Assembly (NCBI GenBank): GCA_001599915.1
Contig: BCIG01000004.1
Location: 558,001-622,000, forward strand
Reading direction: 5' to 3'
Length of the DNA: 64,000 bases
Source of the DNA: Symbiotaphrina buchneri
Taxonomy: Eukaryota > Ascomycota > Symbiotaphrinales > Symbiotaphrinaceae
Shown here: in pieces, positions 48,863 through 53,356 of the stretch
Numbering within the stretch: the first letter of the stretch is position 1
Layout of the letters: each line of letters opens with the position of its first letter
Notes under the pieces: model-generated
Told to the model about the DNA's origin: nothing
The model's database searches: none
The model's input: only the letters and a program-made list of their open reading frames with translations
Position numbers and translations under genes: made by a program

Positions 48863-50085
48863 ATGTCTGCCCTACACAATCTGCCACCCCTCCCCCTTCC
48901 CGAAGGCGTCACCTCTTCGTATATTCCCACCGATGACCTGACATACCACGTCCTCGAGGCCGGCGAGCCTCAAAAGCCCCTCCTCCTTCTCCTGCATGGC
49001 TTCCCCGAGCTTGCCTACTCATGGCGCCAAGTCATGGTCCCGCTGGCGTCGGCGGGATACTACGTCGTAGCCTTCGACCAGCGGGGCTACGGACGTACGA
49101 CTGGCTGGGACGACCGACCGTTTTCGGAGGTAGACATGGCTACATTCAGCCTCTCCGTCATTGTTGCAGATACTGTTAGACTGGTCAATGCGCTTGGGTA
49201 CAAAGAGGTGGAATGCGTGATCGGGCACGACTTCGGGGCTGTTTCTGCTACTATGTGCGCCCTGACCCGTGATGATATATTCAAAAGGTGACCATGCTCT
49301 TCCGGATCTATATCCATGATTGTCACTGATATGTCGTTTCCAGCGTCATAACAATGTCCCATACACTCTCCGGCATTCCGTCCTTCCCTTTCAACACGCG
49401 CTCCTCGCCGGCCGCTCCCAAATCCACACCTAAGGATATCCAAGCCGAACTCGCCGCCCTACCCAATCCACGCAAGCATTACAGATGGTATTACTCGACC
49501 GCTCCAGCCAACACGGACTTGAGCGAACCCAAGTCGGACCTCCACGCCTTCCTGCGCGGCTACTTCTACCTCAAAAGCAACGACTGGGAAGGGAACCACC
49601 CCGCGCCCCTGAAAGCATGGACAGCAGACGAACTAGCCAAGCTTCCATCTTACTACGTTATGCCACTCAACGCCTCCATGTGCAGCTCCGTCGCGGAAGA
49701 AATGGCCCACGAAAGCCCGGCGGACGTACAGGCCAAGTCCTCGCGCTGGCTGCCAGACTCGGACCTCGACATCTATGTGCAGGAGTTTGCGCGGACGTCG
49801 TTTCAGGGGGCCCTGAACTGGTATCGCGTGTCCACGGATCCACGCCTTCTGCGGGACGTGCAGCTCTACGCGGGGAGGAAGATCAAGGTCCCGGCGATGT
49901 TTGTTGCGGGTAAGAGTGATTGGGGCGCGTATCAGGTTCCCGGCGCGCTGGAGGCTCAGCGAGAGTGGTGTGAGCGGTTTAGAGGCTCGAAGTTTGTGGA
50001 TGGCGCGGGGCATTGGGTGCAGCAGGAGCAGCCGCGGGCGGTCGTGCTGCTTGTGTTGGATTTCTTGAAGGGTGAGACTCAATGA
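48863..50085 (+). CDS. Alpha/beta-hydrolase, epoxide-hydrolase-like
   Basis: Probable soluble epoxide hydrolase, adding water to an epoxide through an aspartyl-ester intermediate. Exons 48863-49287 and 49344-50085 (intron 56 nt); 1167 nt, 388 residues. The oxyanion loop reads L-L-H-G-F-P-E-L-A-Y-S-W, the signature HGFPE of epoxide hydrolases. F-D-Q-R-G-Y-G-R-T follows. The nucleophile elbow is I-G-H-D-F-G-A, with Asp123, which favours epoxide hydrolase over esterases using Ser. The cap region holds R-W-Y-Y and A-L-N-W-Y-R-V, where the epoxide-activating tyrosines of the family sit, and the catalytic His is in G-A-G-H-W-V-Q-Q-E-Q-P. The start has no signal peptide, so cytosolic. A MITE lies 120 bases past its stop. 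Confidence 0.88.
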
Positions 50086-50204
50086 GTCCGTATATGAGCA
50101 GTTACTGGCGGAAGGCCTACGTGGTGGGTAATGATCCGAGAAGCGCGCATACTGAGCGCAGAAGTGTGCATAATGTTTAATTAAATGTATGCGGTAAGAG
50201 AAAT

Positions 50205-50256
50205 GCTAATCGGTAATGGCACGCCCCTGTTTCTGGTTACCACACGCCCCTCTCAT
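50205..50256 (+). repeat. MITE left terminal inverted repeat
   Basis: Pairs with 50618-50669 on the other strand; begins GCTAATCGGTAATGG and ends CCCCTCTCAT. Five mismatches in 52 positions. Confidence 0.92.
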
Positions 50257-50617
50257 CTACAATCTACATCGTATCATATCTATCCGCATATCTCATTCAT
50301 CCGCATCGTCTAGTATCTATCTGTCCGTATATCAGCATCGTACCCAGTCCAAATCGTATCTCATCTATCCGGTTAATCTCCGTGACAGACAGATTGATCA
50401 ACCAATAACCTGATCCAGGGCGACATATGTCAGATCTATCTGTAAATCTACATCGGATCGTATCTTATCATATCGTATCTATGTGGTTTATCTCTGTGAT
50501 GGATGGACTGATTAATCGATCAATTAAGGTAGTCAAGGGCGCCTCTTATATATCATGTTCACAAATCTATCCGTATATCAAAGTGGGATTAGTCTGTACG
50601 GTCCACGCGTTTTTTGT

Positions 50618-50669
50618 ATGAGAGGGGCGTGCAGTTACCAAAAACAGGGGCGTGCCATTACCGATTACC
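50618..50669 (-). repeat. MITE right terminal inverted repeat
   Basis: Reverse complement begins GGTAATCGGTAATGG and ends CCCCTCTCAT, matching the left arm except at five positions. Confidence 0.92.
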
Positions 50670-50862
50670 AAGAGAAATATTGGAGAAATAATGCATATAG
50701 GTGGACCTCGCTAAGATGTTCTGATCAATTTCCATTAATTGAAGCTTTTGCATCCAAGACGCCGTTAATCTCTAAGATAGATAAAAGGACTATGACGCCT
50801 CAACAACCAAGGATCTTTTCCTGAAACAAAATGCATCATTAACTCACGGGGACCAGGCCGTC

Positions 50863-53356
50863 TCAATGCATGCTCCATCCGTGATTTCCCACATTCAATG
50901 GCGGCCAAGCTACTTGTTGGCCTGTCCCCGCGTCTCCAACGACCATGTCCTGCGCCCCTCCGTTTCTTTTGAACTCATCAATCAGGCATGTAAACGGCGG
51001 ATAATCGGTTCTCGTCCACTCCGGGCAGACAGGTGCCGCCACGGGAGACTCCTCGCTTTCCATCGTCAATGGCGCCAGGTCCGGCAGCAGGCTCCCATCT
51101 GCGAGTCCCGCAATGCCATTCTCCCTCTTGAAATCATCTAGCCAGGCTGGGTCATCGGCGGTCGTCTGGTTCCACGAGTCCCGGTCGCGGAACACTATCC
51201 AGCGGGCTTCGTCCTGCAGCTCCACATCGGTGGGAATGTGTCCTTGTGCCATAGCGCCGCGCACGTATTCGCCCAGCATACGTCCGAGCACTACTTTGCA
51301 GAAGACGTTCCCATTGCCATCGCTGGGTGTGGATAGCGCCCGGCGGCGTTGTCGGCGCGGCGCACTCTCCTTGATGTCAAGCGAGGCCAGGGCTTCAGGG
51401 GAAAGCTGGGGCACGGCCGAAGGATTGGCTTTTACTTGAGCCGGATTTGCGGAGGACTGTTGAGGTTTGTAGTTGTTGTGGAAGGCGATGTGCATCCTTG
51501 CCGTTGCTGGGTCGAGTTCAAGAAGCTCAAGGACATGAGGTTCCAAACCCCAATCGCCCTTCCAGTCAAACATAGTACAGCCGGACCTGAAATGTGCGGA
51601 CAAGTGATCGACACGCTGCTGCCATGTCGTGAAGATTTTCTCCTCCGTGCCACGGGCTGGGCCACAGAAGCCACAACGCGTCCTGATGTCCGTTATAGAT
51701 CTCTTCCAGCTTTCCATGCTGACATCAAACTTGCAGGAATGCATCAGACGGAGGTGTTGTCGAAGATGGTCCTTCCGGTAGAATGTCCGCTCGGTATGGG
51801 GCTTCTCTTGACAGGCACTGAAATTATGCGTTTCGAGATGGTCTTCATCAGGGTCAATGGCATTGCAGAAGGCGCATATATTGCCAGCTGGCATGCGAAT
51901 TGTCGCTCCGTGCGGCGCACATGTCCATTTTTCAAGTGACAGATGGAGTGACTTTTCATGGCGTTGCCAGTCGTGCTTCGTCTTGAAGGTCTCCGTGCAG
52001 AATGTACACTGGAAAGGGCGTGAGGAGTCATTATCTGCTGATCCGACGCTGTTCCGGGCAGAGATGCGGCGTCGGCGTCTCTTCTCCCGTGGGACAGAGC
52101 CGAATGATCGTCTCGAGGAATGATTGGAGAAGACGGACCCAAACGAGAGGTCGGAGTTCAAGGATCCACTTGAGAGGCGCGACTGTCCACTGCTCACTGA
52201 TGGGGCTCTGAACTGTGAGAAACTCGACTGCGAGCTGCTGTCTTGATGGTGTTCCGCCCAGCTACTGGAATGTGAGGAGCTGCCTTCCCCTCCAGGGTAG
52301 TATGACGTTGTGGCCAAAGCATTGGCAATGGCGGAGACCGAGGCCGGTTCGTGTTCAGGTGGAGAAGCCTTCCAACGATCCATAGGGCCCAACTCGGCAT
52401 ATGATGGCTTGTTGACAGGGAAGTCGATCGGCATCGTCTCATCCATCATAGAAGCGGCACGACGAGGAACTGGCACCTTGCCTCTCCGGCGAGCGTTAGC
52501 TAACCAATTGGCGATTTGGCTGGTCTTCAGACCCGTCTTTTTCTTCAGATCGTCTTTCTGCTCCTCAGTGGGGTAAGGATGCGTGGCGTTAGCTGCAAGC
52601 CAGTCTTTTAAGGTCTTGACAGCAGCACGAGAGAAGCGTGCTGCTCCTTTTCGTGACTGAGAGTCACGGGTAGCTTCTGCAAAAGTGGTCGGGAAGGGTT
52701 CGAGGGGCCCGAAGGCTCGTCCGCCTTCATCAGCGTCTTCAGTCGCGCCAATCTCAGAGACTTCCGAGATCTGCAGATTCATGGCATTCTGCTCAGGTGG
52801 TTGCCTGTCGAATGTCAATGGTCGTCGTCCGAGTGAGTGGACTTGGAAACAGAGCAAAGAGGGTTGAGGAAAAAGATTCGTTGATATCATGATTGAAAGG
52901 GAGAGGACTCTTGGCCCAGCCTACGATGACACAGTCATTTGGAAAGATGCATCAAGCTCAAAGAAAGATTTGCTGAGGAGGCTAAAGTAGACTGGACACT
53001 CACAGACTGCATGTCCTGAACAGGGAAATACAGGACGAGCATCGGGCACTCTGATAATCGACAATGAAGCATCGAAGCTGTCGCTCGCGACAATAATCAC
53101 AGGGCTTCTTAGCAAGTTGGTAGCCCCCCTGCATACGCACACTGTCATCTGCATAGGCGGTGATGCCTTGCTGCTCCATGGAAGCAGTATATGAATCGTG
53201 GAATTCATCGGCAACTTCAAGCAGTAGATCATCATCAATTGTGTTCATGTACGGTGTGACCGGACCGACAGAGCTCGGAAGAGACAGATCTTGATAGGTG
53301 TCTGTCTGCGGATGAGAATCGCCATGTGAGGCTTGATCGAAGTCAAAGAATTCCAT
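50863..53356 (-). CDS. Transcription factor with Zn2Cys6-like, homeodomain and C2H2 domains
   Basis: Nuclear DNA-binding regulator; targets unknown. Exon 1 runs 53356 to about 53004, starting M-E-F-F-D-F-D-Q-A-S-H-G-D. It ends in a C-x2-C-x6-C pair-like cluster: P-C-D-Y-C-R-E-R-Q-L-R-C and C-S-S-C-I-S-L-F-R-T-C, resembling Zn2Cys6. The large exon runs from about 52815 (or an earlier acceptor near 52910) to 50863. It carries a TALE-type homeodomain (F-S-R-A-A-V-K-T-L-K-D-W-L ... I-A-N-W-L-A-N-A-R-R-R) and a basic run (R-E-K-R-R-R-R-R). A C2H2 finger follows (F-Q-C-T-F-C-T-E-T-F-K-T-K-H-D-W-Q-R-H-E-K-S-L-H) with further His/Cys segments (H-L-R-Q-H-L-R-L-M-H-S-C). The exact intron border is uncertain: two donors and two acceptors fit. 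The rest is Ser-rich or acidic. Confidence 0.87.

Follow-up and report, generated by a model that had tools for sequence, protein, structure and literature searches.

The 465-bp element at positions 50205..50669 (+ strand) of the window, by which we mean the whole 64-kb stretch of Symbiotaphrina buchneri DNA analyzed here, probably belongs to a MITE family of Mutator type (MULE-like) that was moved by a transposase encoded elsewhere and is now dormant. The element has no coding capacity, its longest stop-free frame being 70 codons, and its G+C content is 43.4%, compared with 51.8% for the window. It is bordered by two copies of the 9-mer AAGAGAAAT, one at 50196..50204 and the other at 50670..50678, and the 9-bp length of this target-site duplication was confirmed family-wide. 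The element, its exact duplication, and its lack of coding capacity had all been reported in a first-pass annotation of the window, and each was confirmed. Identical 9-mers at the element's exact spacing occur at one of 63,517 window positions, which is that of the element's own flanks, and the ends of the element are the sole inverted pair reported in the window (at least 24 nt, with a 12-nt seed, within 6 kb).

The left terminal inverted repeat, which we refer to as the "A end" of the family (inner unit GGTTACCACACGCCCC), spans 50205..50256 (+) and comprises an outer unit, GGTAATGGCACGCCCCTG... (50212..50234, +), which is a possible transposase-binding repeat, and an inner unit, GGTTACCACACGCCCCTCTCAT (50235..50256, +). 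The right repeat, or "B end" (inner unit GGTAACTGCACGCCCC), spans 50618..50669 (-), with its outer unit at 50640..50662 (-) and its inner unit at 50618..50639 (-). As the first-pass annotation had noted, both ends are thus built of two tandem related units that finish in ACGCCCCT; the units are ~23 bp each and hold the motif ACGCCCC. The 52-bp inverted ends that it described were also found, although calling them "near-perfect" was somewhat generous, given that they match at 47 of 52 positions (the mismatches being at 2, 29, 34, 37, and 38). The family terminal sequence is GGTAATCGGTAATGGCACGCCCC, and, judged by eye, most of the copies compared have GGTTACCACACG at the A end and GGTAACTGCACG at the B end (the exceptions are L019 and L025); mismatches 34, 37, and 38 are therefore probably not decay of the window copy itself. 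Between the two ends lies a non-coding interior (50257..50617, +) with related CATCGTATC and CTATCCGTATATC motifs, which belong to repeat families D1-D3. A 15-base end string occurs in none of the papers searched, and among the literature matches listed for ACGCCCCT together with transposon terms, one, a paper on wheat VRN1, contains the string.

A stop-free frame (49330-50085, +), which lies downstream of an alpha/beta-hydrolase frame and matched no Pfam family, ends 120 bp before the start of the element, and the element itself ends 194 bp ahead of a homeobox-KN frame (50863-52920, -). The element probably sits between two convergent genes, which are known here as unannotated frames. The homeobox-KN frame also gave a borderline match to a Tc5-transposase DNA-binding domain (22.1 bits, compared with a cut-off of 22.2).

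The genome searched comprises 23.4 Mb in 82 contigs, one of which starts with TAACCC repeats; these repeats, the genome size, and the types of genes present suggest a filamentous fungus. A DNA search with the element returned at least 128 matched pieces (40 of 65 candidates were scored, such that the counts are lower bounds). A 25-base end pattern, allowing up to three mismatches, matched 75 times genome-wide, compared with 0 for its reversed control, which argues against the ends being a chance hairpin, and a shorter end pattern matched 90 times, compared with six in the control. The additional copies anticipated in the first-pass annotation were thus found, in ~53 related places, which is again a lower bound: 44 loci (L010-L053), seven further loci (L054-L060), C21, and a short C7 fragment (L062 is a repeat of L060). 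Both ends could be placed in 38 of these 53 places, but not in the other 15. The 38 placed copies measure 164-1138 bp, the longest having been enlarged by a nested insertion; they include a 287-bp copy with an exact 9-bp duplication, which provides the partner of the end at C4:108505. Two more solo ends, which have no MITE interior, lie outside the 53 places. The window element and its family are accordingly short, non-coding, bounded by terminal inverted repeats, and present in many copies, as is typical of MITEs.

We compared the 9-bp flanks of the 38 placed copies, after shifting the end of L020 by one base owing to an indel there. The two flanks were identical in 17 copies, differed by one mismatch in nine, by two in three, and by three or more in nine. 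A duplication of constant length, 9 bp with at most one mismatch, is therefore present in 26 of the 38 copies, as is expected of independent MITE insertions and in support of the earlier proposal of a MITE with a Mutator-size duplication. When the left flank of one copy was re-paired with the right flank of another, none of 1406 pairs had one mismatch or fewer, and 11 of 1406 had two or fewer. There were no exact duplications of 6, 7, 8, 11, or 12 bp among the 38 copies; L031, one of the nine with three or more mismatches at 9 bp, has an exact 10-bp duplication. The first-pass annotation had named related copies lacking matching 9-bp flanks as the finding that would speak against it, and this did not occur, although the 12 of 38 copies with two or more differences do count against a clean 9-bp picture. 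Among the 26 good cases, A or T is found at duplication positions 1, 2, 8, and 9 in 22, 25, 26, and 22 copies, respectively, and the duplications are 70% A+T, compared with 48-52% in the flanks from 9 bp outward. For 14 copies with one placed end, we searched 100-900 bp inward for a 9-mer with no more than one mismatch to the known flank. None was present in 12 of the 14; L056 has an exact 9-mer 409 bp inward of its placed end, and L059 has one with a single mismatch 834 bp inward, which is probably a chance match.

For 26 copies, comprising all of the good cases except L020 together with L046 (two mismatches), the two flanks were joined as 50 + 50 bp with the duplication included once, and compared with the genome. 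This gave 52 matches, 26 to left and 26 to right flanks, all at the copies' own places, and no paralogous empty site was found in the genome with the 26 joined flanks. The flanks of these copies are single copy at that search sensitivity, and the copies are separate insertions; spread by segmental duplication is therefore ruled out for those 26. That the family as a whole arose by segmental duplication, or that the window element is a chance hairpin, is hardly conceivable, given that 26 of 26 tested flank sets match their own place only, that 26 of 38 copies possess a 9-bp duplication of their own, and that the reversed end pattern found nothing.

The first-pass annotation had also suggested that the family "may still be moving". 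This suggestion was not borne out. The smallest distance among 36 compared copies is 5.2% (gaps ignored), the best genome match of the window copy is 94% identical, and the nearest copies generally are ~5-6% apart; no near-identical copies, the mark of an active transposon family, were found among the 36. Since exact duplications survive in 16 other, diverged copies, an unspoiled duplication is no proof of recent movement, and its presence in one copy is poor evidence for present activity.

Base changes were counted in an alignment of 20 copies, selected from the 38 for being of full-length type, so that shorter and rearranged copies were left out; the right-end columns of L011, L022, and L030 were excluded from the change counts because of deletions. 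Private changes occur at similar rates in the ends (48/1939) and the interior (199/6652; P = 0.25). In contrast, shared changes (those found in at least two copies) occur in the ends (54/1939) at about one-third of their frequency in the interior (524/6652; P = 1e-17, a value that is too small because shared changes are non-independent). Since shared changes are largely older than the insertions, this fits ends that were preserved during the mobilization of the family and that later decayed like the interior. Among six single pairs of copies, significantly fewer changes in the ends were found in one only, L010-L014 (P = 0.02), and two of the six, L010-L019 and L022-L038, show the reverse, with more divergence in the ends than in the interior, though not significantly. 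In a tree of the interior only, the subclade of the window (L010, L014, L019, and L021; node supports of 0.72-0.92) combines internal branches of only 0.4-1.1% with terminal ones of 2.4-3.9%, a pattern consistent with a burst in the past.

There is no pooled signature of RIP in the 20 copies: C-to-T plus G-to-A changes in CpA/TpG context number 110 of 342, compared with 36 of 114 consensus C's that precede A. RIP-type changes vary by copy (8/16 in L021 and 8/14 in L048), and RIP has not visibly destroyed these copies. This would suit a family that is still active, served by a functional transposase that is encoded in other strains or in a part of the genome missing from the assembly, and with the window copy as a recent insertion, as would the exact duplications in 17 of 38 copies and the right end of the window copy, which is a full match to the 20-copy consensus; we nevertheless regard continued activity as quite unlikely, because no pair among the 36 compared copies is closer than 5.2%, the window copy carries seven private changes in the alignment, and the sole MULE catalytic domain found in the genome is broken and has other ends (see below). 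We infer instead that this genome no longer supplies a working transposase and that the family is dormant.

Several copies have natural variants of the right end, which hint at the needs of the missing transposase. The inner unit of the right end is absent from four copies other than that of the window (L013, L022, L028, and L030), all of which have a 9-bp duplication with no more than one mismatch, and the breakpoint differs in L028. L041 has a single-unit right end with a poor duplication, L055 has a one-unit end for which no duplication was found, and L029 retains only approximately the outer 13 bases of its right end, with one mismatch in its duplication. Either an element with a one-unit right end could still transpose, or recombination between the repeats easily removes the inner unit once the element has inserted. 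L022 and L030 form a trio with the two-unit copy L038 (support of 0.934), and the order inside this trio has a support of 0.055; the one-unit right end common to L022 and L030 may be inherited, or may reflect independent loss. A broader reading, which we hold to be improbable, is that a transposase lineage since lost from the genome, and able to work with a right end of one unit, spread an orphan MITE family with two-unit ends, and that the origin could lie in an undescribed group of transposases producing 9-bp duplications at WW-N5-WW sites.

The first-pass annotation had proposed looking for a larger element with the same ends and a MULE transposase. No such element, and no MULE DDE transposase between MITE-type ends, was found in the assembly by end-pattern, DNA, and domain searches and by reading of neighborhoods; the assembly may lack repeats. 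Six partnerless ends (C9:614450, C20:322743, C25:54725, C2:170570, C5:686132, and C9:585475) were read inward for ~7-7.6 kb as possible ends of longer elements, and all were rejected, as the MITE interior adjoins each; they were taken to be partial, worn, or rearranged MITEs. The C20 end has a second end, the outer tip of which is lost, and the C25 end has an exact copy of its 9-mer 409 bp inward beside a worn end; both lie outside the 38. The ends at C15:2818 and C18:480741 have no partner end, and no MULE frame could be recognized by eye next to them, so that both were classed as solo remnants. The former adjoins a frame that by eye is transporter-like, near telomere-like repeats. The latter adjoins an AT-rich block (L078, 3500-8680; 24-42% GC per 500 bp) with long direct repeats and frames that look Copia-like by eye. 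The 1138-bp copy was likewise rejected as a parent, since its size is due to an 817-bp element nested within a MITE. This nested element (L036, 509-1325, on C13) has CCTTAGGGGARATACC ends and TA on both sides, which suggests a Tc1/mariner type; its end pattern occurs genome-wide at its own two ends and, with three mismatches, at four other sites, compared with one in the reversed control.

A profile search of the genome with PF10551, at E up to 10, found one MULE catalytic domain, which lies on C18 in a broken copy whose matching region is interrupted by three stops. The element that carries it (L061, 3175-6097; C18:405802 region) is AT-rich, and three separate stop-free pieces of it matched no Pfam family at E 0.001. 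It had no sequence match to the MITE and is a family distinct from it. PF03108 identified one intact frame of 379 aa (L063, 589-1728, -; match at C20:123731-123886), whose only Pfam match is this MuDR DNA-binding domain, with no catalytic domain; this frame may be a domesticated MULE gene. On C41, an open frame of 803 aa (L067, 4429-6840, -) resembles in its front part one of the stop-free pieces of the broken MULE (46% identity over ~146 residues) and carries DUF1989 (Pfam) in its rear part. It has the appearance of a fusion between the DNA-binding region of a transposase and a host enzyme-like domain, and no MITE ends were found in the surrounding 9.9 kb. PF00872 had no genome match at E up to 1.

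The membership of the family in the Mutator group thus rests on duplication length and long ends rather than on a transposase; the family is Mutator-type by its marks, and not a proven derivative. Merlin is another superfamily able to give 8-9-bp duplications, and a mobilizing enzyme from such a superfamily, or from an undescribed one, would be compatible with the lack of a MULE transposase with MITE ends in the genome. We consider this unlikely, however, as the search also covered PF12762 (DDE_Tnp_IS1595), presumably the Merlin-type domain, which had no genome match at E up to 1, and inverted ends together with a 9-bp duplication are the pattern described for two MULEs of fungi, Hop with ends of 99 bp and Mutyl with ends of 22 bp (PMC5014426).

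Taking the Mutator-type reading as the preferred one, a transposase supplied from elsewhere, presumably a MULE transposase, would have recognized the ends of ~52 bp, with the repeated ACGCCCC units as its probable binding sites. The enzyme would have cut the element out, in a cut-and-paste reaction, and joined it to 9-bp staggered cuts, which would yield the 9-bp duplications; the sites used have A/T at both edges. The working transposase would later have gone missing from the genome, leaving a dormant family.

Although otherwise an ordinary kind of mobile DNA, these elements add a well-bounded, multi-copy Mutator-type MITE family, the clean copies of which define its ends and its 9-bp target preference. 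The 9-bp duplications fall within the 8-11 bp given for MULEs, and the 52-bp ends are long, if at the short side for elements whose ends are commonly up to hundreds of bp; the Ascomycota sub-groups described in the same source have ends of 22, 51, and 85-99 bp (PMC6446971). Compared by description, Hop of Fusarium oxysporum is likewise a fungal element with inverted ends and a 9-bp duplication, but it is autonomous, with perfect 99-bp ends and an 836-aa transposase, whereas the MITE is non-coding with imperfect, two-unit ends of 52 bp (PMC5014426). By the same kind of comparison, Mutyl of Yarrowia lipolytica shares the imperfect inverted ends and 9-bp duplications, yet is unlike the MITE in being 7.4 kb long and protein-coding, with 22-bp ends (PMC5014426). 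The broken MULE on C18 resembles the MITE in having a short target duplication, and differs in the apparent length of that duplication (8 bp by eye, CTTGTATG) and in its 31-bp ends, GRGTGCCAGTATTCTG (GRGTGCCAG). Because no transposase with the MITE ends was found, and the sole MULE domain is broken and has other ends, the family looks orphaned in this genome, as do the mimp MITEs of F. oxysporum, which are described as a fungal family with no intact transposase source in the sequenced strain, Fol4287 (PMC3599309). The mimp elements are of a different type (Tc1/mariner, Impala), with ends of ~27 bp and lengths of 200-220 bp; no two copies in Fol4287 are reported to be identical, and the authors judge them not to be presently active (PMC3599309).
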